This document shows, piece after piece, positions 7,138 to 63,848 of a stretch of 64,000 nucleotides of DNA. A program made the translations under genes and the position numbers. Source of the DNA: Patiria pectinifera (lineage: Eukaryota; Echinodermata; Asteroidea; Valvatida; Asterinidae). The notes under the pieces are model-generated. The model did no database searches and was not told the origin of the DNA. It was given only the letters and a program-made list of their open reading frames with translations. The stretch is from positions 11,736,643 to 11,800,642 of the forward strand of contig CM057140.1 in NCBI GenBank assembly GCA_029964075.1, read 5' to 3'. Numbering within the stretch: the first letter of the stretch is position 1; every line of letters begins with the position of its first letter.

Positions 7138-8900
7138 ATGACCGGAGAGAAATATGTCATCTTCTTACTCCTCACAATAACAACAGTGACAACATCTTTG
7201 AGAGTCAGTGCTCCGGGCACGGTGACCGTTCGGAGAGGGGAACCATTGCAGTTGTCATGTGACATCACACTTGAAGCTGGTGATGATATCAAGAAGGTTC
7301 AATGGAACCGAATGCAGGATTCGGGTTTAACAATCTACGGTGAAATCGATGTTTCAAACGGCTGTGGTTTGGAAGACCTGCCGTGCGTTGTTGGGAACAC
7401 TACTGACAATCGTGGAAAAGTGCAATACGAAAGAGGCATGTCTAACGATGCAACGTTGAAGCTTACAGTCGCTAAAAATCACCTTGAAGACAACACTGTG
7501 TTCCGTTGTGTTGTTTCTAGTGGAACATCGTTAACCATAGACCTAGCAAATGTACAGGTGAACATTAATTATTTTTCAAATGCAACCTACCCGAAGTGTT
7601 TCGTGTCTGAAACATCCGCATCGTCACCTTCCATTCTGTCATGCTCGTCTGAGTTCGCTCGACCAAGTGTTTCCCTTTCATGGACAACTGTGGTCAATTC
7701 AACAGACCTGACCCACGGAGGGACCACAGACGTTGCAGGCGATCAAGTCGAAAACAAGCTGCATTTAAACCAATCCTGGACCTTCACTAGGTACGTTTGT
7801 CACGTGACAAGCGAGGCCTTCCCTGGAATCGAAAGAAACTGCTCCGTCGATATCGGACCAACCGCCATCTCCACCGATCCTACATTAGTATCGGCAACAC
7901 ATGACTTACCTACCACGGATTCTTCTATGCCAACTCTCCACGTTACTGACTCAAGTCCAACAAAGTCAAACCCTTCCTCGTTTAGTACAGTTATAATTGC
8001 AGTATTGTCAGCTGCGGGTGGTGTGATCATCATTTTTGTTATCATCGTAATATGTCTCGTGCCGTCAAGGAGGAAGTCAAGAAGGTGGGAAGACAGAGGA
8101 ACGAACCTCCAACAACCCACTCCCGTCATACAAGGCAGTATCAGAGTCGTAGGACCAACCGATCGGGCACCACCACAGTCGGCACCCGAGGGCGTCTTCG
8201 TTGTGCAAACAGTCCGCTCAGAGCAACCGCCACCTCAGAGCATCTCACTGCAAACTCTACCCATCGATACAACGAACAGAATCAAGTCTTCACACCACTC
8301 CTACGAAACCAGAATAGGATGTACTGTAGCCGAACTGCACCCACGGGAACCAGACCAGAGACAGCAAAGCAATACCCCGGTGACCGGCCCCACGGTCGAT
8401 CGACTGCGGCCCCAGTATACGGAGGATGGATATACACAGTACATCGTGGAGGGTAACAACGGGAACCAGACTACATCCAATACAGACTACATGTCACTCT
8501 CAGCTTACGAAAAAGGTAATGACTGGTTCCTTTTCTCTTGTCTTAACAACAGTTCGTTTCGCTTGAAACTACAGTTAGGTCATGTACCAAATGGCAAGAG
8601 TGCAGTAAAGGCATCACAAATCAATTGTAAGTCACGAGTAAGTTGATGTTACAGATTAAAATATAAATGTTAAGCAATGAAATGGACACTGGAATGGAGC
8701 TTATGCGTAAATTGACTTTCTTAAAAGTCGGAGTAATCATCATCAAGTCGTGGGCACATTTTGAAACATCTTCCGTCGCATTATTCTAAATGTTCTTTCA
8801 CTCTACCTGAATCACAGAAGCTACAACAAATGGTTCTTGTTTATCTTTCACAGTCGGCAATGCAGCGCCGTTTGACTATGAACATCCCAACGGACAGTGA
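7138..8900 (+). CDS. Receptor R1: two-Ig transmembrane receptor, clade a, tail A
   Basis: Exon 1 7138-8515, exon 2 8854-8900 (phase 1 junction), 474 aa. The signal peptide is residues 1-20. Ig domain 1 has C41, W56 and C124, with an extra C76/C83 pair (GCGLEDLPC). Ig domain 2 has C154, C169, W182, C221 and C235. A Ser/Thr stalk precedes a helix at about 284-308 (GGVIIIFVIIVICLV) and a basic stop-transfer. The tail carries SYETRIG, QYTEDGYTQYIV, DYMSL and, across the splice, SAYEKV. The terminal exon reads VGNAAPFDYEHPNGQ, with F where paralogs have C. ATG 7138 is chosen because it aligns with R2 and R3; an in-frame ATG at 7036 would add 34 residues that are a fused copy of an upstream ORF. 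Function as a surface receptor is inferred. Confidence 0.85.
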
Positions 8901-9106
8901 GTTCTACATTTACCGGACCTCCGTGACCGGAGAAATTCTGACACAAAAGAAAGCTCCCCACTGAAAAGACAATGTCAGTGCCTCATCATCAGTCAGAACT
9001 TCACATTTATTTAAAAACTGCATGTGAACAGTGGAGTGTCCTGGCGCGGCTGGCGTTCTTTTGTATTCTTTAACTGTGAGGTTTTATTCACTTCTTGGAG
9101 TGACAC

Positions 9107-9444
9107 AAGGGCTGATCCAGAACACTATTTTGCGGATGGGGGCAAAAAAACCCCAATTTGGTCCCCCAAAATTTGGTCCAAAAAAAATGACGGCGTGGGG
9201 TAAGGGAAGCGCTTAAGGGCCCCGAAAACAACTTTGGATTCTAGATGCTCTGTAGTGCGATCTGAGGCAACTTCTGACCACTTTAACCAATTGGTTTGAG
9301 AAAAAAAAGATGGTGGTGTACGCAGTGCCTGCCTGAATTCCGACATCACTAAATACAATGGGGTTCGTTTTGTTTTTATTTTTTTTTGGGGGGGGGGGAC
9401 GGGGGCATGACCTCCGTTGCCCCCCCCCCGGATTCGCCCTAATA
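9107..9444. mobile_element. Non-autonomous element with 10-bp target duplication, copy 1
   Basis: The ends are inverted (AGGGCTGATCCAG at the left; CGGATTCGCCCT at the right) and the body carries long G and C runs. GGAGTGACAC flanks it at 9097-9106 and 9445-9454. A second copy sits at the same place in the next unit (12934-13280), so it inserted before that duplication. Its class is uncertain. Confidence 0.6.
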
Positions 9445-10857: not shown

Positions 10858-10868
10858 CTTTATAAAAA
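10858..10868 (+). promoter_or_regulatory. R2 core promoter TATA box
   Basis: TATAAAAA at 10861-10868 follows AAGGAAGTGAACTT and lies 128 bases before the R2 start codon, the same position as in R1 and R3. Confidence 0.65.
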
Positions 10869-10988: not shown

Positions 10989-12725
10989 ATGGCAAGAGAA
11001 GTAATTATTAACCTGTTACTCATTACAACGGCAACTGTCACAACTTCTGTGAGAATCACTGCTCCGGTCACGGTGACTGCTCGGAGAGGGGAACCACTGC
11101 AGTTATCATGTGGCATCACACTTGAAGCTGGTGATGACATCAAGGAGGTGCGTTGGGTGCGAATGCAGGATTCGGGTTTAACAATCTATTGTTATTGTGT
11201 ATTGTTGGGAACACTACTGACAATCGTGGAACAATGCAATACGAAAGAGACATGTCTAACAATGCAATGTTAAAGCTTACAATCAGTAAAAGTCTACTTG
11301 TAGACGACGGGCTGTTTAGATGTGTTATTAGGAAAGCACATACTTCACACGCTGCACCAATAGCGGTGACAATTTACTACTTTCCAAATGCAACCTACCC
11401 GAAGTGTTTCGTGTCTTCGTACATGCCCGGACCATCCGCATTACCTTCCATTCTGTCGTGCTCGTCTGAGTTCGCCCGACCAAATGTTTCCCTTTCATGG
11501 ACAACTGTGGTCAATTCAACAGACCTGACCCTCAGAGGGACCACAGACGTTGCAGGCGATCAGGTCGGAAACAAGCTGCATTTAAGCCAATCCTGGACGT
11601 ACACCAGGTACGTTTGTCACATGACAAGCGAGGGCTTCCCTGGAATCGAAAGAAACTGCTCTGTCGATATCGGACCAACCACCATCTCCACCGATCCCTC
11701 ATCAGTATCGGCAACACATGACTCTACCACGGATTCTTCTTCGTCAACTCTCCGCATTACTGACTCAAGTCCAACAAAGTCAAACTCTTCCTCGTTTAGT
11801 ACACTTTTTATTGCAGTATCATCAGCTGCGGGTGGTGTGATCATCATTCTCCTTGTCATCATAATATGCCTTGTGTCGTCAAGGAGGAAGGCAAGAAAGT
11901 GTGAAGAGAGAGGGACACACCGTAGGCTGTCCACTCCCGCCATACAAGGTAGTGTCAGAGATGTAGGACCAACCGATCAGGCACTTCCGGCGCCCGAGGG
12001 CACCTACGCTGTGACAACGGTCAGCTCAGAGCAGCCTCCCTCTCAGAACATCTCCCTGCAAACTCTACCCAGTACCAATTCTTCACACCACTCCTACGAA
12101 ACCAGAATTGGATGTACTGTAGCACAGCTGCACCCACGGGAGCCAGACCAGAGACGGCAAAGCAATACCCCGGTGACCGGCCCCACGGTCGATCGACTGC
12201 GGCCCCAGTATACGGAGGATGGATATACACAGTACATCGTGGAGGGTAACAACGGGAACCAGACTACATCCAATACAGACTACACGCCACTCTCAGCCTA
12301 TGAAGAAGGTAATGACTGGTTCCTTTTCTCTTGTCTTAACAACAGTGCGTTTCGCTTGAAACTATTAGGTACATCAACCGAATGGCAGTAGTGCAATAAA
12401 GGCATCACAAATCAATGCAAGTCACGAGTAAGTTGATGTTACAGATGAAAAACAAAGTTTAGCGATTAAATGGACGCTGGAATTGAGCTAATGCATGAAT
12501 TGTCTTTCTTAAAAAGTCGGAGTCATCGTGGGTACATTTTGAAATATCTTCCGTCGTAATCATCTTCAAGTCAAGGGCACATTTTGAAACGTCTTCCGTC
12601 GCATTATTCTTAATGTTCTTTTTTTCTCTACATGAATCACGAAAGCTACAACAAATGGTTCTTGTTTATCTTTCACAGTCGGCAATGCAGCACCGTGTGA
12701 CTATGAACATCCCAACGGACCGTGA
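10989..12725 (+). pseudogene. Receptor R2: frameshifted two-Ig receptor, clade a, tail A
   Basis: Exon 1 would be 10989-12308 and exon 2 12679-12725. The first 66 codons (signal peptide, first half of Ig domain 1) match R1. At about 11188 some 37 bases are missing relative to R1; they encode the segment with the extra cysteines. The frame shifts and stops at 11271-11273. The rest (second half of Ig 1, Ig 2, stalk, helix, tail A) stays open in the other frame for over 380 codons, with donor and terminal exon intact. The last residue would be P, not Q. Either the loss is recent or it is an assembly error or allele. Gene conversion from neighbours could have kept the downstream frame clean. Confidence 0.75.
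12395..12400 (+). terminator. Poly(A) signal inside the R2 intron
   Basis: AATAAA lies just after the stop (12389-12391) that the unspliced exon 1 would meet. The position is conserved in R7, R8, R9 and R11. Confidence 0.5.
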
Positions 12726-14778: not shown

Positions 14779-16766
14779 ATGGCCCGAGAAGTAATTGTCT
14801 ACCTGTTGCTAATAACGACAGCAACTGTCACAACTTCTATACGAGTTACTGCTCCAGGCACTGTGACCGTTCGGAGAGGGGAACCCTTGCAGTTGTCATG
14901 TGCCATCACACTTGAAGCTGGTGATGTTATCAAGAAGGTGCGATGGGAGCGAGGGAAGGGGTCTCATTTTAAAATCTGCGGTGAAATTGACGTTTCAGAC
15001 AACTGTGGCTTCGAAAACGTGTTGTGTAATGTTGGGAACACTACCGACAATCGTGGAACAATGCGATACGAAAGAGGTATGTCTAACAATGCAATGTTAA
15101 ACCTTACAATCAGTAGAAGTCAACTTGAAGACGACGCTGTGTTCCGATGTGTTATATTCCCTGAAGAAAACGGTTCACATGCTGCAAGTTTAGTGGTGAC
15201 CATTAACTTCTTTCCAAATACAACCTATCCAAAGTGTTTCGTGTCCTCATACAGCCACGGACCATCCGCATTACCTTCCATTCTGTCATGCTCGTCTGAG
15301 TTCGCCCGACCAAACGTTTCCTTTCTATGGACAACTTCGGTCAATTCAACGATCTTAACCCTCGGAGGGATCACAAACATTGCAGGCAATCAAGTCGAAA
15401 ACAAACTGCATTTAAATCAATCTTGGACCTACACTAGGTACGTTTGTCACATGACAAGCGAGGCCTTCCCTGGAATCGAAAGAAACTGCTCTGTCGATAT
15501 CGGACCAACCACCATCTCCACCGATCCCTCATCAGTATCGGCAACACATGACTTGTACAACACAGATTCTTCTACGCCGACTCTCCACTTTACTGATTCA
15601 AGTCCCACTAATTCAAACCCTTCCCAATTTAGCACAGTAATAACTGCAGTATCGTCAGCTGTGGGCGGTGTGATCATCATTCTCCTTGTCATCATAATAT
15701 GCCTCGTGTCGTCGAGGAGGAAGACAAGAAGCTGGGAGAACAGAGACGCAACCCTCCAGCTATCCACTCCCACCAGACCAAGTGATGAGATTAGCAGGCA
15801 GGCAGCTCACATCTACGACAATCACAACTACTATAACCAACCTACGAGCCACAGAGCTAGCGGGCATAGAGTCAAAGACGCGGGGCCAACCGATCGAGCA
15901 CCCCTACCACCGCCCGAGCCCGAAGGCGCCTACGCTGTGACAACGGTCGTCTCAGAGCAGCCTCCGCCGCCACCGGTGTATGCAGTACTGGATCCTGAAG
16001 CGTCACGAGATGACGATACAGGTGTATCGGGCGTCTACTCGTATGCCACTGTGCAGAAGATGACAACACCTTCTCATGACGGCAAAATGAAACAAAATGG
16101 TGAGTATACTTAATATTATATACAGTTGTATTTGTAGGTAAGCCAACTCACTAAGTCCAGTTATAATTGTGGTATATACCTATGGGTCTTAACTGTTCAA
16201 GCTTTTGAGGAATGGCAAAAAGGAATTTCGTGGGCAACTCATATTTGCAGTAAATACATTTAAAAAAAAAAACGGACCCATTCTGTAATTTATCAAGATG
16301 GCCAGTTTCTCAACCAAAAACTGAAGAATGAAAGTTGGTGCGAATTGCACAGATAGCGGACGGCGGACGAAACGCGCAGGAAACGAAAGGAACCCTCGGG
16401 AAGATCAGATTATATCCCAAGAGTGTATGGCAAGCTAAAGGCCTTTGAAAACTACACGGAACTCAAATTTTCCTATCGTTTTCTTCTTGTGCACTGCCTG
16501 GAACAAGCTGCTTGCAAATAGCCGTTGTTCACAAGGCCCAATTTTCCCATCTTTCGTTTTCAGTTCAGAAAGCGGCTGACCTGCACAATCGGAGTACCGT
16601 GGGAGACTACTCCGAATTAGTGGGGCAGCTCCAAGCCGGTGGCCCGCTTGGGCAACGTCTGGGCGATGGAAACACCAACGGGGGTTACAACGACGATAAC
16701 TGCACTACAGTATTCGTCGACAATATACTGTATGTTGCTTCATTGGATGATGCACTACAACTTTAG
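14779..16766 (+). CDS. Receptor R3: two-Ig transmembrane receptor, clade a, tail B
   Basis: Exon 1 14779-16099, exon 2 16564-16766, 507 aa; donor TG|GTGAGT, acceptor TTTTCAG, phase 1. The signal peptide is residues 1-20. Ig domain 1: C41, W56, C124, extra C76/C83, and an unpaired C67. Ig domain 2: C153, C171, W184, C223, C237. Helix at about 286-310. The ectodomain is close to R1 and R2, but the tail is different: proline-rich with PPPPPVYAVLDP, YSYATV and, from exon 2, GDYSELV and VDNILYVAS. Such YxxL/V motifs could bind SH2 proteins, and the proline runs SH3 domains. The 68-codon terminal exon is homologous at its end to that of R5. It is the only clade-a member with tail B. Confidence 0.85.
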
Positions 16767-18796: not shown

Positions 18797-20482
18797 ATGG
18801 CTTCCAAATTAAAGCTTATATTGGTATTTGCCCTGCTTGTAAACTTCACAGGATCGTTACAGATTACGAATCAACCATTGGTGTCAGTACGCAGAGGTGA
18901 GGAGTTGTACTTGGCGTGTGACATTAAACTCGAAGTTAATGTTTCTTTATCGTTGGTTGGATGGTTCCGAGCTATTGAGGCAGAACCGTATGGTGCGATT
19001 GATGTTTCAAATGGTTGCGGTTTACAGGAATTTCCATGTCTTGAACTTAACACTGCAGATAGTCGTGGTGTTGTCCACTATGCGAAAAAAGAGAACAGTG
19101 ATGCAAGATTGGCATTGACAATTCATAGCACCACACTACATGAGAACACGCGCTTTTGGTGTGTGTTTCTGGAAGGAAGAATTCAAAATTCCGCAAGTGT
19201 AATGGTGACAGTCTACTACCTGCCACAAATGGGATATCCAACGTGTACTTTGTCGTTGCACTCCGCCGACAACTCAAGTGCTGCGCTGAATTGCTCCTCC
19301 GAGAAAGCCCAACCAGTGGTTTCTCTGGAGTGGACAACCCTGGTTGATTCGTCCAGAGTATCACTCTCAAGCGATACAGTCATCGTCGGGGATCAAGTCC
19401 AAAACACTTTCCATGTAAACACTTCCTACAGTAATTCGGTATTCACCTGTTACATGAGGAGTGAGGCCTATCCTGGCATCAGCAGAAACTGCTCTCTTGG
19501 ACAAAATAGTTTCATTCCGACCACCATTTTAACATCTCAAAAAATCAAGACATCCCAAGCATCAGCAGTTACAATTTCACAGGAACACGGTATCACATCT
19601 GAAGATCAGTCCGATCAAGATACGACCTTGCTGACCGCGACCGTCGATACCCTTGGCCCTATCCCAGTCAAGGCATCCGTGTTTACAGCAGTATCAGCAA
19701 CTTGTGTCTCCGTTATTATTGTCCTCCTCCTCCTCCTCGTTGCATATCTGGCTGCATCCAGGAGAAAGCTGCAGAAACAATGTAATGATTTACGCCAGCA
19801 CCTTGCAACTGTCAATCCATCTAACACAAGGAGCTCAGATGGTCACGACCTCGGGGAACCTCAACGCATCTCACTGCACACTCTACCCAGCGGTACAAGG
19901 GACAGTACCAACTCCTCACACTCCTATGAAACCAGAATTGGATACACTGTAGCAGAGCTGCACCCACAGGATCCAGACCAGAGACAGCAAAGCAAACCCC
20001 TGGTGACCGGCCCCACGGGCGATCGACTGCGGCCCAAGTACACGGAGGATGGATATACACAGTACATCGTGAAGGGTAACAACGGGAACCAGACTACATC
20101 CAGTGCAGACTACACGCCACTCTCAGCTTATGAAGAAGGTAAAGACTGGTTTCCTTTTTGGGGTTCTCAAAACCAATTTGTTTTGTATAAAACTGCAATT
20201 AGGCATATGTATACCAGAAGTCCAGCAAAGGCTAAAGAGCAATGAATGCATCATAAATCAATTAGTCACCATAGTTAGTTGATGTTGCGGATCAACAAAC
20301 GTTTGTTTTGCCTTTAAATTGACACTGGGATTGAGCTAATTTACTCAAAATGTCTGCGTCATCGTGGATACTATATTAAACATCTTCTGTCGTATTCTTC
20401 TCAATGGTCAACGATGCTCTTTTTCTCTTGCACAGTTGGTCACGCAGCACCGTGTGACTATGAACATCCCAACGGACAGTAA
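18797..20482 (+). CDS. Receptor R4: two-Ig transmembrane receptor, clade b, tail A
   Basis: Exon 1 18797-20138, exon 2 20436-20482, 462 aa. ATG 18797 begins a typical signal peptide (MASKLKLILVFALLVNF) and aligns with R5; an in-frame ATG at 18773 would add 8 residues. Ig domain 1: C41, W56, extra C74/C81, C122 (TRFWC). Ig domain 2: C150, C166, W179, C218, C232. Helix at about 295-320 (VIIVLLLLLVAYLAASRRK) is of the clade-c type, unlike R5. Tail A carries SYETRIG, YTEDGYTQYIV, DYTPL and, across the splice, SAYEEV. The terminal exon reads VGHAAPCDYEHPNGQ and stops with TAA where paralogs have TGA. Confidence 0.85.
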
Positions 20483-22524: not shown

Positions 22525-24455
22525 ATGGCTTTCAAAGTAAGTGTCATTTTGGTAATTGCACTGAGTGTAAACATCGCAGTATCGTTAGAAATCATACGCC
22601 TACCAACGGTGGCAGTACGGAGAGGTGAAGTGTTACACATGCCATGTGGTATTAAATTAGACGCTGATGTTTCTTTAACGTTGGTTCGATGGCTCCGAGT
22701 TACCGAGGCAGAACCGTACGGTGAGATTGATGTTTCAAGAGGCTGTGGTTTGCGAGAACTGCCATGTCCTGTAGTGAACACTGCAGATAGTCGTGGTGTG
22801 GTCCAATATGTCAAACTTGAAAACAACCATGCAACATTAGCATTGACAATTCATAACACCACTCTAGATGACAACACGCGTTTTGATTGTGCTTTTCTGG
22901 AAGGGGCAATTCAACATTCCGCAAGTGTAATGGTGACAGTCTACTACCTGCCACAAATGACTTATCCAACGTGCACTTTGTCGTTGCACCCCACCGACAA
23001 CTCATGTGCTGCGCTGAATTGCTCCTCCGAGAAAGCCCAACCAGTGGTTTCTCTGGAGTGGAAAACCTCGGTCAATTCATCAATGATATCACTCTCAAAC
23101 GAAACGGTAATCGCCGGAGATCTAGTTGAAAACATTATGCCTCTACAGGCGGTGGATGCTCTCTACAATAACACAATATTTACCTGTTACATGAGGAGTG
23201 AGGCCTATCCTAACATCAGCAGAAACTGCTCCATTGGACCACAAATCCTTATCCCAGTCAGTCCTACCACGCAAAACCACGAACCATCTGAACGCACTTC
23301 AACAGCAACTCCGCTCCACCCCACACCTATCTTTCAAACCACTACTGTACTGGCGCCCGACCCCGTCCCCTTCCCAGTCAGCACTATCGTCATTGCAGTC
23401 GCAGCGAGCGCTGGTGGCTTCATCATTATCGTTCTCCTTGCCATAATCGTTTGTCTTGTCTCGAGGAAGAAACCGGAGGGGCGTGAGGACAGAAACATAT
23501 CCTTCCGCCTTTCCAACGCCACAGCATCGAACACCGATGGCAGTAATCAAACGACCAACGACTACGAGGAACATGCCATGGGGAGCATCGGGTTGACAGG
23601 TCCGCCGCAGCCACCTTGCCAGTCCGCCTACGCCTACGCCGTGATTCCAGGGACTAGCCTCCACCAGCCACCGCCACCGGAATACGCCGTGCTGGATCCT
23701 GACAACCCATCGGAAGAAGTAACCAGCGATGAGTACGCATACGCGTACGCTCATCTAAGGCCTACCACCCAGCAGGCGATGAGACAACAAGGCTTGTATA
23801 AGGATGCGGCGTCGGGTCATGGAGGAACCATCGAAAGGGATGTTGAAAGAGGTGAGTCCAAACCAATTCTGACTTGAGACTTCACAGAAGAGGGAGGTTA
23901 TGAGTTGAATCAGTTGTACCACTGCACTAGAATCTGTGTATGAACGGTAGGTGGCCTGACCACTAGTCTAGCTGCCAAGTCTGAAAAAAATCTTAACACG
24001 ATGTTCAGTTTTAAAGCAGAGAGAACGCCCCCCCCCCCTCATCCAACCGGGAAAAAATGAAATTAGAAAGGTGGAGGTCGAACCAGAGTCAGAACATGGA
24101 AGGCGACCAAAGTACAACTGCGCAAACACGACTCCCCTGACCTACTTCACTTGTGTTCTTTCTTTTTTTAATAGGTGAAGATCCCAATGAGTCCAGAGAC
24201 CAAGCGACAACCAACTATTACTACGCAGAAGTCACGCCAGTCAGTGCAGGAGATTCTTCGGGGATCCCGCTTAGCGACGACGGTGGCAATCACGGCAAAG
24301 ACAACGACGACGACAAATGTGACAGTGAGTTTGTGGACAACATCCTGTACGTGGCGTCCTCAGACGATGCCATCATCAATGAGCAAAGATTTGTTAATCG
24401 TGACGTCACCTCTCAAAAGAAGGTCAAAGGGAAACCCAGACTTGACCCATTCTAA
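22525..24455 (+). CDS. Receptor R5: two-Ig transmembrane receptor, clade b, tail B
   Basis: Exon 1 22525-23851, exon 2 24175-24455, 535 aa, phase 1 junction. ATG 22525 starts a clear signal peptide; upstream in-frame extension has only TTG. Ig domain 1: C41, W56, extra C74/C81, C122. Ig domain 2: C150, C166, W179, C221, C235, plus an extra C161. A short Pro/Thr stalk precedes a helix at about 286-312 with the AGGFIIIVLLAIIVCLV pattern of R1-R3. Tail B is long: SAYAYAVIPG, PPEYAVLDPD, YAYAYAHL, and from exon 2 NYYYAEVTPV and VDNILYVASSDDA, ending KGKPRLDPF. Eleven or more tyrosines make it the richest tail here. The ectodomain is closest to R4, but the tail is not. Confidence 0.87.
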
Positions 24456-25917: not shown

Positions 25918-27589
25918 ATGGCAGCCCTAGTAGTATTTGTCTTCTTCCTGGTTACCAGGATGGCAACCATGGTAACGTCTGTCACAGTTTCGGCTGCGAA
26001 TGCGGTGAGCGTTAGCAGTGGTGAATCATTACATATATCGTGTGATGTCTGGTATGAAGATGATGCCAAAATCACTTGGGTTCGATGGTACAGGCAGTCA
26101 GAATCGAAACCATATGGTGAAATCGATGTTTCAACAAGTTGTGCGCAAATGACTTGTCCCGTAGCACTCACCACTGACAATCGTGGCAGAATCCGATACG
26201 AAAGAAGTAGCATGAACGAGTCAACGCTGTCATTGGCAATTGGTACCAGCACATTAGAAGACAATAGAGATTTCATTTGTGGATTCTTCTCAAGGATAGT
26301 TGGGTATCCGTTTCATCATGCTGCAATTATATCTGTGAGTGTGATTTACCCTCAAGATGAAATCAATCCAGTGTGTGATGTTTCGAGTCCTACTGAGCTG
26401 ACTTGCTCATCTAAGATAACTCAACCAGTGGTTTCTCTGGAGTGGACAACCTTGGTCAATTCATCAATGATATCACTCTCAAAAAACACAACCGTTGTCG
26501 GGGATCAGGTTGAAAACACTCTGCATCTCGACACAATCTTGATTTCTTACGACAGTAAGATATTCACTTGCTACATGACAAGCAAGGTCAACCCCGTCTT
26601 CAAAAAAAATTGCTCCATCGGACCCATCACAGTTCCCTCCACTTCAACAATTGTGCATAATGGTCCAACCGAGACTACCACAAGACACCAGACTACAATC
26701 AGACTGAGCACTTTTGACCCTAAAGCCTCCGTGTTAACAGCGGTGACAGCAACTTGTGTCACCGTCATGTTTGTCCTCCTCCTCCTCCTTGTTGCATATA
26801 TGGCTGCATCCAGGAGAAAGCTTCAGAAACATTTATATGAGGAGCAGGAAATATGTAAATATTACCGCTACCAACTTGCAACCGTCAATCTATCTCACAC
26901 GAGGAACTCAGATGGTCACGACCTTGGGCAAGCGCAGAGCATCTCAATGCAAGTTCTGTCCAGCGATACAAGGAACAGTACCAACTCATCACACCACTCC
27001 TACGAAGCCCGAATTGGATGGACTGTAGCAGAGCTGCACCCACAGGAACCAGACCAGAGACAGCAAAGCAATACCCCGGTGACCGGCCCCGCGGTCGATC
27101 GACTGCGACCCCAGTACACGGAGGATGGATATACACAGTACATCGTGGAGGGTAACAACGGGAACCAGACTATATCCCATACAGATTACATGCCACTTTC
27201 ACCTAATGAAGAAGGTAATGACTGGTTACTTTTTTTTGTGATCACAATTCCAAGTCGTTTTGCTCAAAACTGCAATTAGGTTATTGAACCCAATGACAGA
27301 AGTGCGATAAATGCATCAGAAACTTTTCACAAGTCACGAGTTGGTTGATATTACAGATTAATATTTTGCCATTAAATGGACACTTTGGTTGAGCTTATGC
27401 ATGAATTGACTCTCTCAAAATGTCTCTGTCGATCATCGCGGGTATAAGTTTGAAACATCTTCCGTCGCATTGTTCTTACTTTTCTTGTATGCTAAATGCA
27501 TCACACCAGCTACAAGAAAAGGTTTTCTTTTCTGTTTCACAGTCAGCGATGCAGCTCCGTGTGACTATGAACATCCCAACGGACAGTGA
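25918..27589 (+). CDS. Receptor R6: two-Ig transmembrane receptor, clade c, tail A (tyrosine lost)
   Basis: Exon 1 25918-27214, exon 2 27543-27589, 447 aa. An in-frame TAA 12 bases before ATG fixes the start. Signal peptide about residues 1-25. Ig domain 1: C42, W57 in WYRQ, extra C75/C80, C121 (RDFICGF). Ig domain 2: C153, C163, W176, C218, C232. Short stalk; helix at about 272-296. Tail A carries SYEARIG, QYTEDGYTQYIV and DYMPLSPNEE, where the last-exon-junction tyrosine of the paralogs is N, so the SxYxxV motif is gone. Terminal exon VSDAAPCDYEHPNGQ. It has one of the shortest stalks in the array and no 66-bp repeat. Confidence 0.87.
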
Positions 27590-29815: not shown

Positions 29816-31470
29816 ATGGCAGCCCGAGCAGTATTTGTCTTCCTCCTAGTTGCCATGATGGCAACCATGGTAACGTCTGTGACAGTTTCTGCTGCGCATG
29901 CGATAAGCTCTAGCGGAGGTGAGCCGCTACAGATATCATGTGATGTCTGGTATGAAGATGGTACAGAAATCCTAGCGGTTCGATGGTACAGGAAAACAGA
30001 TCTAACAGTAGGCCTATACGGTGAAATCGATGTTTTAATAAGTTGTGCGCATATGAATGTATGTGAAGCACACACAGCTGACAATCGTGGAAGAATCCGT
30101 TACGAGAGAAGCAGCAGAAACATAGCAACGCTGACATTGGCAATTGGTACAAGCACGTTAGAAGACAATACAAAGTTCATTTGTGGATTCTTCTCAAGGA
30201 GAGGAGTTGGTACTTCAATTCATAATACTGCAACCATAGATGTGAGTGTTATTTTTCCTCAAGATAAAATGAATCCAGTGTGTGCTGTTTCAAGACCCAC
30301 TGAGCTGACTTGCTCTTCTGAGATAACTCAACCAGTGGTTTCGCTGGAATGGACAACCTCTGTCAATTCATCCAGGATATCCCTCTCAAGAAGCACAACC
30401 AGCGTCGGTGATGAAGTTAAGAACATTCTCCATCTCGACACCCTCGAGATTCCGTACGACGGTAACATATTCACTTGCTATTTGACAACCGAGGTCAGTT
30501 CCGTCTTCAAAGGAAATTGCTCAGTCGGACCCATCACCGTTCTCTCCACTTCAACAACTGGGCATAATGGTCCAACCGAGACTTCCACAAGACACCAGAC
30601 TACAATCAGACTGAGCACCTGTGACCCTAAAGCCTCCGTGTTAACAGCGGTGATAGCAACTTGTGTCACTGTTATTTTTGTCCTCTTGCTCCTCCTTGTT
30701 GCATATATGGCTGCATCCAGGAGAAAGCTTCATGAGGAACAGAAAATATGTAAATATTACCGCTACCAACTTTCAACCGTCAATCAATCTCACTCGAGGA
30801 ACTCAGATGGTCACGACAATGGGCAAGCGCAGAGCATCTCAATGCAAGCTCTATCCAGCGATACAAGGAACAGTACCAACTCCTCACACCACTCCTACGA
30901 AACCAGAATTGGATGGACTGTAGCAGAGCTGCACCCACAGGAACCAGACCAGAGACAGCAAAGCAATACCCCGGTGACCGGCCCTACGGTCAATCGACTG
31001 CGGCCCCAGCACACGGAGGTGGAATATACACAGTACATCGTGGAGAGTAACAACGGGAACCAGACTTCATCCAATACAGATTACATGCCACTTTCACCTA
31101 ATGAAGAAGGTAATGACTGGTTTCTTTTTTGAATACCAATTGTTTCCCTTTATAACTGCAATCAGGTAAATGGAATTACAGAAGTGCAATAAAAGCATCA
31201 GGAATCAAATGCAAGTCACGACTAAAGTTGATATTACAGAATAAAAAAAATGTTTTGCAATTAAATGGAGACCGGGATTGAGCTAATGCATGAAATGACT
31301 TTTTCGAAATGTCTGAGTCTTCGTGGGTATAATTTGAAACATCTTCCGTCGCATTGTTAATTGTATGGTATGCTACATGCATCACACCAGCTACACCAAA
31401 ATGTTCTCTTTTCTGTTTTACAGTCGACAATGCAGCACCGTGTGACTATGAACATCCCAACGGACAGTGA
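29816..31470 (+). CDS. Receptor R7: two-Ig transmembrane receptor, clade c, tail A (tyrosine lost)
   Basis: Exon 1 29816-31109, exon 2 31424-31470, 446 aa. In-frame TGA lies 12 bases before ATG. Ig domain 1: C42, W57, extra C77/C83 (CAHMNVC), C123. Ig domain 2: C156, C166, W179, C221, C235. Short stalk, helix at about 275-299. Tail A resembles R6: SYETRIG, DYMPLSPNEE (tyrosine replaced by N), terminal exon VDNAAPCDYEHPNGQ. One tail segment differs: QHTEVEYTQYIV in place of QYTEDGYTQYIV. It is probably the nearest paralog of R6 by stalk and tail. Confidence 0.87.
31188..31193 (+). terminator. Poly(A) signal inside the R7 intron
   Basis: AATAAA in GTGCAATAAAAGCATC, 55 bases past the stop of the unspliced reading frame (31130-31132). 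Confidence 0.5.
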
Positions 31471-42824: not shown

Positions 42825-44649
42825 ATGGCAGCCCAAGCAGTATTTGTCTTCTTCTTTGTTACCAGGGTGGCAACCATGGTAACGTCTGTAACAGTTTCGG
42901 CTCTGCATGCGGTGAGCGTTAGCGGAGGTGAACCGTTACAGATATCGTGTGATGTCAGGTATGAAGATGATACAGAAATCACAGGGGTTGTATGGTACAG
43001 GCAGGCAGATCCAAAAACATACGGTCAAATCGATGTTTCAACAAGTTGTGCACATATGACTGTATGTGCATGTGAAGCACACACATCTGACAATCGTGGA
43101 AGAATCCGATACGAAAGAAGTAGCAGGAACGAAGCAACACTGACATTGGCAATTGGTACCAGTACATTAGAAGACAATAGAAAGTTCATTTGTGGATTCT
43201 TTTCAATGAGAGGAGATGGTAGTACAATTCAATATACCGCAACCATATCTGTTAGTGTGAATCACAATCCGGTGTGCTATGTTTCAAGTCCCACTGAGCT
43301 GACTTGCTCATCTGAGATAACTCAACCAGTGGTTTCTCTGGAGTGGACAACCTCGGTCAATTCATCAATGATATCACTGTTAAACGGCACGGTCAGCACT
43401 GGGAATCAAGTTAAGAACATTCTCCATCTCGACACCCTCGGGATTCATTATGACAGTAGAATATTCACTTGCTATTTGACAACCGAGGCCAGTCCTGTCT
43501 TCAAAGGAAATTGCTCCATCGGACCCATCACCACATCGTCCACTTCAACGACCGTGGATACGGAATCTACCGAAGCTTCGATAAGCACCACCAGGGAAAC
43601 TAAAACAGTGAGTACTGCCTCATCTGATCCAACAGCTATAGACACTAGGGCATCTCAGACTTCTAGAAGCATCTCACAGCAAGGCGAAACATGGGGAACG
43701 CCTAGTACTTCAGGCACAACAGCATCCGAACCCACTCAAGATACAGAAGTGTCCTTCAGGAGAACCGACAGCCTTTCTACCATCAGGCTAAACACCTTTG
43801 CCACTGTCCCAGTCAAAGTCTCCATTCTAATAGCAGTGGCAGCAACTTGTGCAACCGTTTTTATTGTTCTCTTCCTCCTCGTTGCATATCTGACTGCATC
43901 TAGGAGACAGTTTCAGAAACGTTTTCATGAGGAGCAGGACAAATGTAACGGTTACCAGCATCAACTTGCAACCGTCAATCCATCTGCCGCGAGTAGCTCA
44001 GATGGTCACGATCTCGGGGAACCTCAGAGCATCTCCCTGCAAGCCCGATCCAGCGCTACAAGGAACAGAAACCACTTCTACGAAACCAGAATTGGATGGA
44101 CTGTAGCCGAGCTGTACTCACAGGAACCAGACCAGAGACGGCAAAGCAATACCCCGGTGACCGGCCCCACGGTCGATCGAGTGCGGCCACAGTATACGGA
44201 GGATGGATATACACAGTACATCGTGAAGGGTAACAACGGGAACCAGACCACATCCAATACAAACTACATGTCACTCTCACCTTATGAAGAAGGTAATGTT
44301 TGGTTTCTTTTTTTATGACCAATATGTTTTGCTTAAAAATGCAATTGGGTATATGTACACAATTGCAGAAGTGCAATAAAGGTATCAGAAATCAATCACC
44401 AGTCACGAATTAGTTGATATTACAGATTAATGATTTGCGATGAAATTGACACTGGGATTGAGCTGATGCATTTACTTTCTTAAGATGTCAGAGTCTTCGT
44501 GGGTATAATTTGAAATATCTCCCGTGGCATTGTTGTTAATTTTATGATATGCTACACGCATCACAACGGCTACAACCAAATCTTCTCTTTTCTGTTTCGC
44601 AGTCGGCAATGCAGCACCGTGTGACTATGAACATCCCAACGGACAGTGA
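42825..44649 (+). CDS. Receptor R9: two-Ig transmembrane receptor, clade c, tail A
   Basis: Exon 1 42825-44292, exon 2 44603-44649, 504 aa. In-frame TAA 12 bases before ATG. Ig domain 1 has WYRQ and an enlarged extra-cysteine loop CAHMTVCAC, with three cysteines instead of two. Ig domain 2 begins directly at NPVC after a shortened linker. The stalk of about 90 residues holds one copy of the 22-aa unit (GTTASEPTQDTEVSF). Helix at about 331-357. Tail A: FYETRIG, QYTEDGYTQYIV, NYMSLSPYEE, spliced SPYEEV, then VGNAAPCDYEHPNGQ. All tail-A tyrosines are kept except that DYM is NYM. Confidence 0.87.
44375..44380 (+). terminator. Poly(A) signal inside the R9 intron
   Basis: AATAAA in GTGCAATAAAGGTATC, 57 bases past the stop of the unspliced frame. 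Confidence 0.5.
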
Positions 44650-48491: not shown

Positions 48492-51140
48492 ATGGCAGCC
48501 CAGGTCCAAACAGTATTTGTCTTCTTCCTGCTTACCAGAATGGCAACCATGGTAACGTCTGTAAGAGTTTCGGCTGCGCATGCATTGAGCGTTAGTGGTG
48601 GTGAACCGTTACAGATATCGTGTGATGTCTGTCATGAAGATGGTACAGAAATCCTAGGGGTTCAATGGTACAGGCAGGCAGATCCAATAGCATACGGTCA
48701 AATCAATGTTTCAACAAGTTGTGCACATATGACTGTATGTGAAGCACACACAACTGACAATCGTGGAAAAATCCGATACGAAAGAAGTAGCAGGAACGAA
48801 GCAACGCTCACATTGGCAATTGGTACCAGCACATTAGAAGACAATAGAAAGTTCATTTGTGGATTCTTCTCAAGAAAAGGAGCTGGTAGTCCAATTTACA
48901 ATACCGCAACCATATCTGTGAGTGTACATTACCCTCAAGATGAAATGAATCCAGTGTGTGATGTTTCAAGTCCCACTGTGCTGACTTGCTCGTCTGAGAT
49001 AACTCAACCAGTGGTTTCTCTGGAGTGGACAGCCTTGGTCTATTCATCTGAGATATCACTCTCCAAGGATACAATCATCGTCGGGAATCAAGTGAAGAAC
49101 ATTCTCCATCTCGAAAAGCTCGAGATTCATTATGACAGTAGAATATTCACTTGCTATTTGACAACGGAGGTCAGTCCTGTCTTCAAAGGAAATTGCTCCA
49201 TTGGACCCATCACCGTTTCATCCACTTTAACGACGGGGGATACTGAACCCACTGAAGCTTCGATAACTACCACAAAGGAAACTGAGAGTACTGCCCCATC
49301 TTATCTAACAACTGTGGGCACTACTGGGGCTTCTCAGACTTCTCAGACTAGAAGCACCCCACAGCAAGTCGAAACACAGAGTAGGCCTAGTACTCCAGGC
49401 AGAACAGCATCCGAACCCACTCAAGATACAAAACTGTCCTTCACCACAACGGACAGTACTCCAGGCAAAACAGCATCTGAACCCACTCATGATACAAAAC
49501 TGTCCTTCACCACAACGGACAGTACTCCAGGCAAAACAGTATCCAAACCAACTCAAGATACAGAACTGTCCTTCACCAAATACAGAACCGACAGCCTTTC
49601 TCCTGCAAGGCTAACCACACCTCCTTCATCGACAAAAGCTGTTCAATCCACCTTCGCACACACAACTTGGCATGATAGTCCATCCAAGACTTCCACCAGG
49701 CACCCGACCACAATCAGCTTGAGCTCATCTGATGAAACAACGCCTTCTACAATATTGACAGACCCCTACTTGTTATCTGGCAGTACTTTGCTCATCGTAG
49801 TATGGGCTTCATTGGGTGGTGTCATCATCTTCCTGCTAGTCATCGTAGCTTGCCTAGTATCAAGGAGGAAAGCAAACAAGCGACAAACTAGAAACGTGAG
49901 CATATCCATGGCCAGAATATCGGGAACATCGGAGACTGGTAGGCTGGGAATTGTGTACGGCCATCGATGCGATGACCAGCGTAGCAGTCAAAGAGCATGC
50001 AGTTACAGCGATTTACCAGTGGGGGATAATAGACCGACAAGTCCCCATCAGCTAGTGCCCGCGTACGCTGTGGTTCCTGTGTTGGGCTTACAGCAGCAAC
50101 CACTGCCTGAGTATGCTGTGCTAGATCCAGACATCTCATCGGAGGAGATATCTGGTGATGACGACACGTACGCGTGTGCTATCGGGCAGAAGGTGAGAGG
50201 ACGATGCTTGAATGAAGATGCAGCATTGGATGGAGTAAACTTTGGACACGACGGTGAGCAAACCTTTTTTAAGCAAACTATCGTGGGTTAAGCAAACGGA
50301 TTATGAAAAACGAGAGGTGGATACGGTTGCGATGCTTAATTTGGCAGCACTGTTTACTTTAAGGGTAATGATTTATAAGCCAGTTGATCAGGGGTAACAA
50401 TGGTGTAATGAATAGGGCGTGGTGGTACTGTTGCTCACCCTGTCTACGTGCAACAGAGTTACCTACATGTAATTACATCTGAAAACGTTTTAATTATATT
50501 TTACTAGAGAACAGTCAAACATGCACCACCTGACCCCAGGTGTAGTCAGCTGGGTGCAAGTTGGACTGTTTTTATAGACCTTTATCATGCTGCCACCATT
50601 TCAGTTGTGCTCCCTGCATCCTATAACAGTACTGAATGATACTTTTTCGTGCAAAAGGAACCAGACTATTATTCCTTCCAACCTCACTTTGGTTACGTTG
50701 ATTTAGATGGGAAATAATCAAGATGGCCGCAACATGATCTATAGTCAAACCTACCTAACTGTTTTCACAGCGTAAAGAGCACAAAACGTCAGAACTTATA
50801 GTCACCTGTTTAATTAGATAGTGATGATGATTTCGATGATCTTCTTCACACAGCTCCAGAGCCTCCATGGTCTAGAAACCAGAAGACGGACGTTCCCTAC
50901 GCGAAGATTGGACTCTCCACCACAGCAAGCTCCTCCGTGTCACCTCGTCACAATGCAGGCGACAGCGACGATGACAGGAAGGCAGCGATAGAGTCGAGAC
51001 CACAGTATCCGAGACCAAAACCAAAACCAAGATCGAAAAGTGTTGGTCCGAAACCGATTCCGAGACCGAGACCGAAGACGAGACCGACAACTGAGGTTTC
51101 GAGACAAGACCGAGACTTTTGTGGCCGAGACCGAGACTAA
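48492..51140 (+). CDS. Receptor R10: two-Ig transmembrane receptor, clade c, tail B (last exon interrupted)
   Basis: Exon 1 48492-50253, exon 2 50854-51140, 682 aa; in-frame TAG 9 bases before ATG. Ectodomain of clade c (WYRQ, CAHMTVC, FICGF). The stalk has three 22-aa units (SEPTQDTKLSFTTTDSTPGK type). Helix at about 430-457 has the GGVIIFLLVIVACLV pattern of clade a. Tail B: SYSDLP, PLPEYAVLDPD, TYACAI, and from exon 2 VPYAKIGL, an exact ITIM (V-x-Y-x-x-I). After RKAAIES the exon runs into a GAGACC-rich repeat giving a basic PRPKPKPRSK tail. The native end (GNILYTAS) lies beyond at 51601. The present C-terminus is therefore derived from a repeat. Confidence 0.8.
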
Positions 51141-51600
51141 GACAAGACCGATAGGCCATGCCCATTAATGAAGTAGCCTATAAATGCCTTGCTTATTGTG
51201 TCAGCTTATACTCATCAGAAACAGTTTATTCCACTAGTTTCTTATTCGCTTTCAAGAAATAAACTGAAAGAGAATACCTCGTGTAGAAAAACACTCTAAA
51301 TAAAATTTAGACATCTGCTTGTTGTTAAGCGATTAGACTTAAGTTGATCAACCACAAGTCATAGCTGTCCAAAGTGGTCCATTGGCATCAAAGTGTGGTC
51401 GGTTTTTTTTTATTTACGAACGAGTAGTAAGTGATCAATTAACCACAGTGCACAGACAAACTAGCGCCAAACGTACACGCCACGCCAGGACGTACCATAC
51501 TACCTTGAAGTCCGATACCGAGATAAGACTGAGACTTATCCGAAAAAAAGACTGTCTCGAGACCGGTGTCTCGAGACGGAGACCGGTCTCGAGACCTCCT
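50988..51600. mobile_element. GAGACC-rich repeat inserted in the R10 terminal exon
   Basis: Sequence full of CCGAGACC at the left and TCTCGAGACCGGTCTCGAGACC-like palindromes at the right separates the two halves of a tail-B exon. Exact ends and target duplication could not be fixed by eye. Class unknown. Confidence 0.55.
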
Positions 51601-51731
51601 TTACTGGACAGGAGGTTGGTGGGTAACATCCTGTACACGGCGTCTTTGAATAATGGCATCATAACATTTGGTTATGACGTCATCGCTCAGAAAAAAGGTC
51701 AAAGGGAAACCCAGACTGGATCCGTTCTAAG
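51601..51731 (+). pseudogene. Stranded 3' half of the R10 tail-B exon
   Basis: GNILYTASLNN and, in a shifted frame, sequence matching SQKKVKGKPRLDPF of R5; DNA identity is evident to the stop region (CAAAGGGAAACCCAGACT). Displaced from the R10 frame by the insertion. Confidence 0.7.
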
Positions 51732-58379: not shown

Positions 58380-58602
58380 AAAACAATGCGCCGCCCCCAA
58401 AAAAATGCGCCGCCCAAAATAATAATGCGCCGCCCAAAAAAAAATGCGCCGCCAAAAAAAAAATGCGACCCAAAAAAAAAATGCGACCAAAAAAAAAATG
58501 CGCCGCCAAAAAAAAAATGCGCCGCCAAAAAAAAAAATGCGCCGCCAAAAAAAAAATGCGAACACAAAAAAAAAATGCGAACACAAAAAAAAAATGCGAG
58601 GC
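58380..58602. repeat. A-rich tandem repeat in the right arm
   Basis: Reverse complement of the 54560-54860 array; unit lengths differ by a few A residues and fewer units are present. Confidence 0.85.
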
Positions 58603-60945: not shown

Positions 60946-61099
60946 ATTATTGCATTCGTTTTGAAAGTAAGCGATCTTTGACAATATTGCCAGAGCTTAT
61001 ATAAACAAGAACTATAGTCTCGATTCGCAGACGTTGTTGTGATTTAAAAGTGCATAAAGAGGTCTCCAGGTACGTGTATCACATGAATACAATTAACTG

Positions 61100-61203
61100 T
61101 TCATTTTACGCGCTGACATTAACGAAGACGGTCATAACTCCGGAGATAAAGAGAAGTCAGTGTCTGTTCAAGTCATTATCTGGTAGTACAGTAACAAAGC
61201 AAC
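61100..61203 (+). promoter_or_regulatory. Clade-c 5' conserved block of R11
   Basis: TTCATTTTACGCGCTGAC, CTCCGGAGATAAAGAGAAGT, GTCATTATCTGGTAGTAC and TAACAAAGCAAC before ATG. Confidence 0.5.
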
Positions 61204-63848
61204 ATGGCAGCCCAAGCAGTATTTGTCTTCTTCCTTGTTACCAGAATGGCAACCATGGTTGCGTCTGTAACAGTTTCGGCTCCGCATGCGGTGAGCGTTA
61301 GCGGTGGTGAACCGCTACAGATATCGTGTGGTGTCTGGTGTAGCGATTGTGCAGAAATCATTGGGGTTCGATGGTACAGGCAGGCAGATCCAATAACATA
61401 CGGTCAAATCAATGTTTCAACAAGTTGTGCACATATGACTGTATGTGAAACACACACATCTGACAATCGTGGAAGAATCCGATACGAAAGAAGTAGCAGG
61501 AACGAAGCAACGCTGACATTGGCAATTGGTACCAGTACATTAGAGGACAATAGAAAGTTCATTTGTTCATTTTCTTCAAGGAGAGGAGTTGGTAGACCAA
61601 CAGAGAATACCGCAACCATATCTGTGGTTGTGAATTACCCTAAGGATGAAATGAATCCAGTGTGTGATGTTTCGAGTCCTACTGTGCTGACTTGCTCGTC
61701 TGAGATAACTCAACCAGTGGTTTCTCTGGAGTGGACAACCTTGGTCTACTCATCCAGGATCTCACTTTCCAAAGATACAGTCATCCTCGGGAATCAAGTG
61801 AAGAACATTCTCCATCTCGACACGCTCGAGATTCATTATGACAGTAAGATATTCACTTGCTATTTGACAACCGAAGCAAGTCCCGTCTTCAAAGGAAATT
61901 GCTCCGTCGGACCCATCACCATATCATCCATTTCAACGACTGGCAATATGGAATCCACCGAGGCTTCGATAAGCACCACAAGGGAAACTGAAACACTGAG
62001 TGCTGCCCCATCCAATCCAACAGCTATAGACACTAGTGCATCTCAGACTTGTAGAAGCACCCCACAGCAAGGCGAGACACAGAGTAGGCCTAGTTCTCCA
62101 GGCACAACAGCATCCGAACCCACTGTAGAACTGTCCCTTCCCAGAACCGACAGTACTCCAGGCACAGCAGCACCCGAGCCCACTCAAGATACAGTGTCAT
62201 TTCCCAGAACCGACCGTACTCGAGGCATAACAGCACCAGAGCCAACTCCAGAAACAGAACTGTCCTTTCCTAGAGCCGACAGTACTTCAGGCAAAACAGC
62301 ATCCGAACCCACTACAGATACAGAAATGTCCTTCATCAGACCCGATAGCCCTTCTCCTGCAGGGCTAACCACACCTACTCCATCGACGGCAGATGTTCGA
62401 TCCACCTTCACATACACAACTTGGCATGATGATCCAACCGAGACTTCTATCAGACACCAGTCTACCATCAGGCTGAGTACCTTTTCCCCTATCCAGGACA
62501 AATTTTACTTGTTAACAGTGCTGCCAGCAACTTGTGCCACTGTTATCATTGTCCTCCTGCTCCTCGTCGTTGCATATCTGGCTGCATCCAGAAGAAAGCT
62601 TCAATATGATGTACAAGCACAGGGAAAACGTAAAGATTATCACACGAGGAGCTCAGATGGTCACGCCCTTGGGGAACCTCAGCGCATCCGTCTGCACACT
62701 CTATCCGGCGATACAAGGTACAGTACCAACTCCTCACCCCACTCCTACGAAACTCGAATTGGTTGTACACCAGCAGAGCTGCACCCACAGGAACTAGACG
62801 AGAGGCAGCAAAGCCAACCCCCGGTGACCGGCTCCACGGTCGATCTACTGCGGCCCCAGTACCCGGAGGATGGAGATACACAGTACATGGTGATGGGTAA
62901 CATCGGGAACCAGCCTGCAGCCAATACAGACTTCATGCCAATCTCAGCTTACAGAGAAGGTAATAACTTGTTTCATATTTTTCTGGTCTCAATTCTACTT
63001 CGTTTTGCTTAAAACTGTAATTAAAGGGAATATACAACATTTGCAAACATCAAAAAATAAACCTACCACGTTTTTACGAAATACCTTACTATGATTTTGG
63101 AAAATGACAGTCTTAAGCATCCTGTAAAATTATGGCACCGGGTGTGAGGACATTTTCAAGAAAATGGTATTTTTGTATGCATTTCCAACGGTGATCGGCC
63201 GACCATCGTTGGAAAACCTCACTATTTTTCAACTGCTCCAAATTTACGAATTTGTTTTCAGTCCAGATTTTGATTGCTATTCGTGAACGGGTGCAGGCCA
63301 ACTAGACTAGTTTACCATACATTTTTCCGGTATCTATAAATTGATCCATTTCATCTTAAGTGGAGTCAGGGAACCGGACTACTTGAACGTTTTGGTTTTT
63401 CTTGTTTTTTCCCCCAGCATTTTCGAACACAAAACTTCAAACATGTCAGTGTAACAATATTTGATCAATTATACTAACCCCTCAAATAGTTTATTATTGA
63501 AAATTACAGCAAAAGCCAATGATGTACATTCCCTTTAAATGCATGTATATATCAGGTACATCTACCTTTATTGTAAAAGTGCAATAAAGTCATCACAGCT
63601 CATTGAGAGTCCTGAGTTAGTTGATGTTACAGATTTAAAGAAACTTGGTTGCGGTTGAATAAACACTGGGATTTAACTAATACTTCCTCAAAATGTCAAT
63701 CCCTCAAGTCATCCTGAATATGATTTGAAACATCTGCCGTTGCATTATTTTTTATAATGCATTTCCTGCATGCTACATGCATCACAACAGCTCTACAGCA
63801 AAAGGTTCTCTTTTCTGTTTCACAGTCGACAATGACGTGTGGCTGTGA
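61204..63848 (+). CDS. Receptor R11: two-Ig transmembrane receptor, clade c, damaged tail A
   Basis: Exon 1 61204-62959, exon 2 63826-63848, 592 aa. In-frame TAA 12 bases before ATG. Ig domain 1 has C42 but also CSDC in the loop that is YEDG in paralogs, and FICSF where others have FICGF. Stalk with four degenerate 22-aa units. Helix at about 434-459. Tail A has drifted: SYETRIGCTPAEL, QYPEDGDTQYMV, DFMPISAYRE; the DYM tyrosine is F, but the spliced SAYREV keeps SxYxxV. The terminal exon has lost several bases and now ends VDNDVWL, without YEHPNGQ. The intron contains a TTAA-type element. It may be decaying or diverging in function. Confidence 0.78.
63021..63538. mobile_element. TTAA-flanked TIR element, copy 2, in the R11 intron
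   Basis: TTAA then AGGGAATATACAACATTTG at the left; ATGATGTACATTCCCT then TTAA at the right. Same family as 34178-34694. It lengthens this intron to about 870 bp versus about 300-340 bp in other tail-A genes. Confidence 0.8.
63593..63598 (+). terminator. Poly(A) signal inside the R11 intron
   Basis: AATAAA in GTGCAATAAAGTCATC, the counterpart of the signals in R2, R7, R8 and R9, displaced downstream by the inserted element. Confidence 0.45.

Follow-up and report, generated by a model that had tools for sequence, protein, structure and literature searches.

Eleven tandem immunoglobulin receptor genes with two exchangeable tails in the sea star Patiria pectinifera: a probable array of germline paired receptors

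What kind of surface receptor does a sea star encode in a row of eleven related genes, each built from immunoglobulin (Ig) domains, a single helix and a tail with many tyrosines? The genes, g1 to g11, lie head-to-tail on the + strand at positions 7138-63848 of the window, by which we mean the whole 64,000-nucleotide stretch analysed here (C12:11,736,643-11,800,642, C12 being contig CM057140.1 of the Patiria pectinifera assembly GCA_029964075.1, which has 613.5 Mb in 1020 contigs). Judged from the sequence, the array probably encodes germline 'paired' surface receptors of an immune or allorecognition type that form a family of their own. Tandem growth, broken copies, change on the face of the V domain, a more conserved second Ig domain (Ig2), variable stalks and exchangeable tails together resemble what is seen in paired immune or allorecognition receptors. 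New in this work are the two swapped tails, a like pattern in Asterias, the focusing of change on the GFCC' face of V and at least about 90 further long V-set frames in the genome.

The large exon is open in 10 of the 11 loci and encodes a leader (judged from hydrophobicity alone), a V-type Ig domain, Ig2, a stalk, an uncharged helix and a tyrosine-bearing tail; these ten frames begin at an ATG and reach a splice donor. The frame of g2 begins within the V domain: near 11189 the frame is lost and roughly 15 codons are gone, and the first half of V lies in another frame. Its P. miniata counterpart, P0005, likewise starts only within Ig2. A sequence-only reading of this DNA had proposed eleven head-to-tail receptor genes of this architecture; the count was borne out by eleven large frames on one strand, and the architecture in the ten open genes. 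Among the ten proteins run against Pfam (all but g2), V-set was above the cut-off in g3 and g6, sub-threshold in g1, g8, g9, g10 and g11 (E 3e-5 to 0.015) and unlisted for g4, g5 and g7, and all ten, including those with no V-set listing, align as one family. Ig2 is weak in Pfam (Ig_2 or C2-set_2 below the cut-off in three of ten) and poorly modelled (predicted local distance difference test score, pLDDT, of 47-67 for the block and 35 at its end); its Cys and Trp are conserved. The best 21-residue helix is free of D, E, K, R and H in all eleven genes, and 5-10 tyrosines lie beyond it before the open frame ends. Ser and Thr make up 28-46% of the stalk in the ten open genes, and its length is 37-301 residues, a range met even among close relatives. 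A related coding repeat of 63-66 bp occurs in three stalks, with about 11 copies in g8 (36877-37614), about 3 in g10 (49389-49578) and about 4 in g11 (62092-62333).

There are two types of tail, A and B, which are dissimilar in sequence throughout. With tail types assigned by eye, tail A is carried by g1, g2, g4, g6, g7, g8, g9 and g11, and tail B by g3, g5 and g10 as well as by g12, g13, g14, g16 and g19 to the right of the window; g15 and g17 were scored as A for their repeated tail-A-like modules. In g15 (L012:3729-6533) the tail reaches 382 residues and consists of some five copies of a two-tyrosine module resembling that of tail A. Both tails occur in each of the ectodomain classes I, II, III and IV, every one of which is a starred, well-supported clade in a tree of 26 ectodomains, 4 of them from other species; g14, gm1 and P0003 fall outside the four classes, and all have tail B. 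Tail type changes 9 times on this tree (8-10 in bootstrap replicates), compared with a mean of 8.2 for shuffled labels, 435 of 500 shuffles giving as few changes or fewer, and the starred branches alone force at least 6 changes. Tail type is no more clustered on the ectodomain tree than expected by chance, and is not tied to lineage. Like ectodomains stand on different tails, as they do in paired receptors.

Where heads and tails are joined can be read from pairwise identity in 60-bp bins. Between g1 and g3 identity is 65-97% into the juxtamembrane part and then drops to 33-50%, whilst in g9/g10 and g4/g5 it parts within the stalk. Identity rises along the gene in g4/g8 (V 38-63%, Ig2 and stalk 60-86%, helix onward 72-92%) and in g1/g8 (32-55% through the proximal tail, 85-100% after it). 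Synonymous divergence (dS) in distal tail A is only 0.066 for g4/g8, 0.074 for g1/g8 and 0.135 for g1/g4, whereas in V the same pairs give 1.56, 1.17 and 2.06, which suggests that the tails moved between heads, or were converted, much later than the heads parted. The intron next to the tail differs by 0.30-0.41, more than the synonymous sites of the tail, so a contribution is also expected from conversion over short tracts or from constraint acting on the tail exon. Distal tail A is poor in synonymous change altogether: in the C-terminal half of g4/g11, 1 of 35 synonymous sites differs, compared with 21 of 109 non-synonymous sites. Dual coding of this stretch was considered and is unproven: much of the stretch has an open +2 frame, yet this frame ends inside it in 8 of 8 genes, those of g4 and g8 hitting an earlier stop.

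The two tails also differ in how they end and in the motifs they carry. The eight tail-A genes of the window share a phase-1 intron and a short last exon, in which a G|GTAA donor and an AG|T.. acceptor give a last exon of 47 nt in seven genes and of 23 nt in g11. The predicted spliced end of tail A is VGNAAPCDYEHPNGQ, and the C-terminus of P. miniata P0005, ..DYMPLSAYEEVGNAAPCDYEHPNGQ, is the peptide that this splice predicts. The small last exon is missing from g3, g5 and g10, which have a different and longer 3' end, made of a single exon in g3 and g5 and of what appear to be two in g10; near its end stands FVDNILYVASxDDA or similar, which recurs in P0001, P0002, P0003 and P0004. In the public gene model of P. 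miniata P0002 a tail-A gene runs at its end into the leader and V of a tail-B gene, probably through misannotation or as a read-through transcript. Tail A, with TDYMPLSPYEEV as an example peptide, has the pattern TDYMPLS.YEEV; the final V is encoded by the last exon, so the second tail A motif exists only after splicing. Class IV has TGYMPLTVYEQI. Tail B has mostly YAxV/I-x12-YAVL (YAVVx12YAVL), VAYAEI and a distal NILYV (DNILYVAS).

Counts of motifs were compared with those in shuffled tails, a comparison that overstates significance because the sequences are related: [SIVLT]xYxx[IVL] occurs 9 times in six A tails against 2.1 expected, and six B tails (g3, g5, g10, g13, P0003 and P0004) hold 20 Yxx[LIV] against 7.4 expected and 4 pairs resembling an immunoreceptor tyrosine-based activation motif (ITAM) against 0.3. 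The ITAM-like pair has a spacing of 12 in g5, g10, g12, g13, g19, the gene on C22, one gene on the unplaced contig C642 and P0001, and of 6 in P0004. The strict ITAM is found in g5 and one C642 gene and, with a spacing of 9 (YQAL-x9-YTKL or similar), in P0009, P0011 and P0012. By their sequence, the motifs of tails A and B differ, but motif alone would not fix an activating or inhibitory sign. The sequence-only reading had pointed to chordate receptor arrays with tails like the ITAM or its inhibitory counterpart (ITIM), and had described one large exon plus a small terminal exon in every gene. Motifs of both kinds do exist, resembling the ITIM or the related switch motif (ITSM) in A and mostly an ITAM-like spacing in B, but the existence of two tail types had been missed; the exon layout holds for eight genes and fails for the three tail-B genes.

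If heads and tails are separate modules, on which part of the head has change accumulated? In the four classes, amino-acid change is concentrated on the predicted GFCC' face of V. The ratio of non-synonymous to synonymous differences (pN/pS) on this face is 1.07 in class III, 0.97 in I, 0.80 in II and 1.07 in IV, compared with 0.42, 0.68, 0.45 and 0.57 for the remainder of V and 0.42, 0.47, 0.59 and 0.29 for Ig2, in the same order.

Relatives were sought in a protein database by a search that required shared 5-residue words and scored the best ~8000 candidates. All the named relatives among the matches listed are sea star proteins annotated 'uncharacterized': P0001, P0002 and P0005 from Patiria miniata, P0004 from Acanthaster planci, P0003 and P0007 from Asterias rubens, and P0006, P0008, P0009 and P0012 from Asterias amurensis. 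Three more matches, P0010, P0011 and the distant P0013, came without a name. The earlier placement of the array in an invertebrate deuterostome, made from the letters only, agrees with these genera. Asterias appears to have a like two-tail pattern: A. amurensis P0009 and P0008 are identical at 82 of 118 residues in V and 168 of 226 in Ig2 and stalk, whereas their tails agree at just 34 of 137 residues; P0012, which has no second Ig, has a tail resembling that of P0009 (85/132). Of four pairs that are likely orthologues, two have V as the part that changes fastest, namely g13/P0001 (V 72/121, Ig2 78/90, stalk 134/138, transmembrane helix 21/21) and P0007/P0008 (V 88/120, tail 173/188). Within P. 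pectinifera, g3 and a C642 gene resemble g13/P0001 in that V differs far more than the remainder of the gene. The tail-A genes g2 and P0005 have the same residue at 217 of 239 aligned positions.

The array extends past the window on both sides to form a cluster of ~113 kb (C12:11,729,874-11,842,816) with about 21 genes, at least 2 of them broken: 2 on the left (- strand), 11 in the window and 8 on the right, where g18 is split over two frames. The g6 protein matched 53 stretches of the genome and the g13 protein 45, with much the same picture. Outside the cluster, five or six family genes or fragments lie on the 25-kb contig C642 and one at C22:19.63 Mb, with faint relatives on C6, C17 and C1. 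C642 (L017-L019) is colinear with 7-24 kb of the window at ~68-93% identity, and the C22 copy (L020) with 64.7-73.1 kb from the window start, just past its right end, at ~80-86%. As P. miniata P0001 and P0005 share a record of 48.5 Mb whilst P0002 is on another of 28 Mb, a second locus is favoured as the source of the C642 and C22 copies; a strongly diverged haplotype would be the alternative, and for this reason we refrain from claiming trans-species polymorphism. When the genome was searched for V-set domains, at least 150 stretches were found; 90 of the best 150 lie in frames of at least 380 codons, forming 26 groups. None of these 90 is in the window, and 3 of them have a stop within the match. 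Eight loci from this search and four further 10-kb stretches, examined by eye, mostly encode a leader, V, one or two more Ig domains, a helix and a tyrosine tail in one frame, whilst locus L003 has a single Ig only. Strict ITIMs occur in some tails elsewhere (in L002: LTYQSL, LTYMDL and VRYKNL) and in others there are none.

Could such an array have another purpose? The same genes would be expected if V heads told individuals, rather than microbes, apart and the tails set acceptance or rejection, that is, if this were an allorecognition or gamete-recognition array. P. pectinifera is described as showing allorecognition after metamorphosis (PMC9763293), and a Botryllus review describes FcoR as used in allorecognition and the Hydractinia candidates as also carrying ITAM/ITIM; the excess of V divergence in g13/P0001 and in g3 and its C642 relative would fit as well. 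However, V is kept at 90-91% in two of the four orthologue-like pairs, and the at least about 90 other long V-set frames, in 26 groups, exceed the needs of one recognition locus. We think a purely allogeneic role rather unlikely. As the word 'receptor' does not occur in the main text of PMC9763293, the sea star Ig family is a natural candidate for P. pectinifera allorecognition and no more. Molecules of cell adhesion or neural wiring, of the nectin, CADM or Sidestep type and expanded in sea stars, would account for the matches of V to nectin and Necl-5 structures and for CADM4 and Sidestep VII being among the nine weak matches of a PDB profile search (best E 6e-4). We regard this explanation as decidedly improbable. 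The V fold itself is generic, with antibody and T-cell receptor structures matching as well as nectin ones, so that the origin independent of vertebrate families that was proposed from the letters is no more than possible. In a third account, gene conversion and relaxed constraint within a redundant array have produced the GFCC' and tail patterns as by-products, with no functional pairing. Given how old the classes are, synonymous divergence in distal tail A is very low, as conversion would leave it; in addition, g2 is broken, the g11 tail has lost two tyrosines, and face pN/pS is about 1 and not clearly above it. On the other hand, ten of the eleven frames are open, the rest of V and Ig2 are constrained in the full classes (pN/pS 0.29-0.68), the two-tail pattern recurs in Asterias, and g2 and P0005 have remained alike, all of which make an array of mere by-products improbable.

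Several observations nevertheless weigh against our preferred reading of paired receptors. A pN/pS of about 1 fits relaxed or mixed selection as well as positive selection. The limits of the GFCC' face were chosen after the class III windows had been viewed, and the window over residues 23-33, off that face, is also above 1. In class II, pN taken by itself is scarcely elevated on the face (ratio 1.13, a level reached in 25 of 120 shifts), and in class IV without g15 the face stands at 1.90 and the rest of V at 1.02 (22 of 124 shifts as high). The excess of change in V is absent from two of the four pairs (V 91% and Ig2 89% in c642d/P0002; V 90% and tail 92% in P0003/P0006). As for the tails, the strict ITIM ([SIVL]xYxx[IVL]) is present in four of six A tails (five of seven with g11), 4 against 1.5 expected (p 0.057), and the ITAM was not found in tail A. 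The ITAM-like pair is missing from g3, another C642 tail-B gene and P0003, the first tyrosine of the Asterias ITAM also fits an ITIM, and ITIMs occur in three of four Asterias B-like tails (P0003, P0006 and P0008, but not P0007).

For the paired-receptor reading, we propose the following model. The V face would bind variable ligands on microbes or on the cells of other individuals, and Src-type kinases would phosphorylate the tails. Tail A and tail B may then recruit different SH2 proteins, such that, in coelomocytes, heads of like specificity could lead to outputs that differ or even oppose one another. Heads and tails would be re-paired by recombination, either in the stalk or close to the helix. 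More broadly, and only tentatively, it is possible that sea stars have a germline system like that of natural killer (NK) cells, with about 100 or more single-exon Ig receptors in many clusters. In such a system genomic recombination would re-pair V heads, spacers and two tails, letting specificity and the sign of the signal evolve independently, and the system may serve both allorecognition and pathogen recognition. Echinoderm immunity is usually told through the expansions of TLR, NLR, SRCR and 185/333 genes. If our reading is true, sea stars would offer a third setting, besides chordates and cnidarians, for NK-like paired recognition. They are easily challenged, grafted and sampled, and suffer epidemic wasting disease. 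The array would allow a direct test of whether head and tail modules of a recognition receptor can evolve apart from each other.

The coordinates of the genes are collected in Table 1. Scans of the window for tRNA and Rfam families gave no matches. Between g10 and g11 lies a fold-back element of ~4 kb (54560-58600), in which most of the longer inverted arms show 95-98% complementarity and each outer end carries 19-bp A/T-run tandem arrays; it looks like a recent insertion or inverted duplication. About 10 kb past the last gene of the cluster is an exon of a family-47 glycosidase (mannosidase). More clusters with long V-set frames or faint similarity lie at C6:0.89-1.02 and 1.89-2.10 Mb, C12:1.85, 2.35 and 8.5 Mb, C15:20.75 and 22.16 Mb, and C1:8.9-9.3 Mb, whilst the V-set matches on C20, C21 and C3 are mostly in short frames of about 97-218 codons and appear to be a differently built set.

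Table 1. Exons of the receptor genes in the window
Feature	Position	Strand	Remarks
g1 large exon	7138..8515	+	ectodomain class I, tail A
g1 last exon	8854..8900	+	VGNAAPFDYEHPNGQ, stop
g2	10989..12308	+	class I, tail A; broken, with V falling in two frames near 11189
g2 last exon	12679..12725	+	counterpart is P. miniata P0005
g3 large exon	14779..16099	+	class I, tail B
g3 last exon	16564..16766	+	terminates ..FVDNILYVASLDDALQL, stop
g4 large exon	18797..20138	+	class II, tail A
g4 last exon	20436..20482	+	VGHAAPCDYEHPNGQ, stop
g5 large exon	22525..23851	+	class II, tail B; YAVI-x12-YAVL
g5 last exon	24175..24455	+	
g6 large exon	25918..27214	+	class III, tail A
g6 last exon	27543..27589	+	
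g7 large exon	29816..31109	+	class III, tail A
g7 last exon	31424..31470	+	
g8 large exon	36163..38251	+	class III, tail A; 66-bp tandem repeat in stalk, 36877-37614
g8 last exon	38578..38624	+	
g9 large exon	42825..44292	+	class III, tail A
g9 last exon	44603..44649	+	
g10 large exon	48492..50253	+	class III, tail B
g10 further exons	50847..51681	+	P0001-tail matches 50847-50978 and 51607-51681; splice sites approximate
g11 large exon	61204..62959	+	class III, tail A; two shared-motif Tyr changed to Asp and Phe
g11 last exon	63826..63848	+	shortened, VDNDVWL, stop

How does the array compare with receptors already described? Among titles and abstract openings, with subscription papers mostly outside the scope, no paper on this receptor family was found. 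A search for the 'Ig kappa' gene claimed for Asterias, which might share a locus with P0003 or P0007, also found no paper. That the array matches no named family, as had been said from the letters, was upheld by the Pfam and PDB profile searches. No match to a particular vertebrate family emerged, Pfam, PDB profile and fold searches placing V only generically. KIR, LILR, CD300 and SIRP were not among the matches listed by VIA-align (50 entries of 999 chains), which excludes nothing, and NCBIfam, a library of bacteria and archaea that says little here, gave nothing for 4 proteins. NITR, KIR, LILR, CD300 and SIRP form tandem arrays in which Ig heads of like kind stand over activating or inhibitory tails. 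Vertebrate genes of this kind have one exon per domain, and a J-like [FW]GxG motif is a feature of the NITR V domain. In contrast, the sea star array uses one large exon for all domains, and the J-like motif is found in none of 26 V domains of the family. The lack of a charged residue in the helix of all eleven genes implies no DAP12-type partner.

Sp185/333 proteins have no Ig domain, and VCBPs are secreted and have a chitin-binding domain. The array is like both in being a diversified gene family, here of a probable immune type, in an invertebrate deuterostome; no chitin-binding domain was listed in the Pfam runs, and the sea star proteins have a transmembrane helix. Hydractinia Alr comprises clustered Ig receptors with ITIM/ITAM-like tails, but it is a cnidarian family and, as generally described, is set apart from the array by several divergent Ig-like domains and multi-exon genes. 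According to the Botryllus review, which names ITAM/ITIM for the Hydractinia candidates, FcoR have a V-type Ig head and tails bearing ITIM, hemITAM or Yxx[ILV] core motifs; a sushi domain and a pair of C2 Ig domains are also present, and at some loci motifs are exchanged by alternative splicing. They share with our array an invertebrate deuterostome host, a leader, a V-type head, a further Ig, one helix, a long tail with motifs, clustered loci and an exchange of motif type. Unlike them, the array has one second Ig, its swap is genomic and lies within one large exon, and no sushi domain was listed in 10 window proteins and 13 alignment members. Membership in NITR, FcoR or VCBP fails in each case on a tested feature. 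In its working mode, we liken the array to the NK-receptor families, Hydractinia Alr and Botryllus FcoR.

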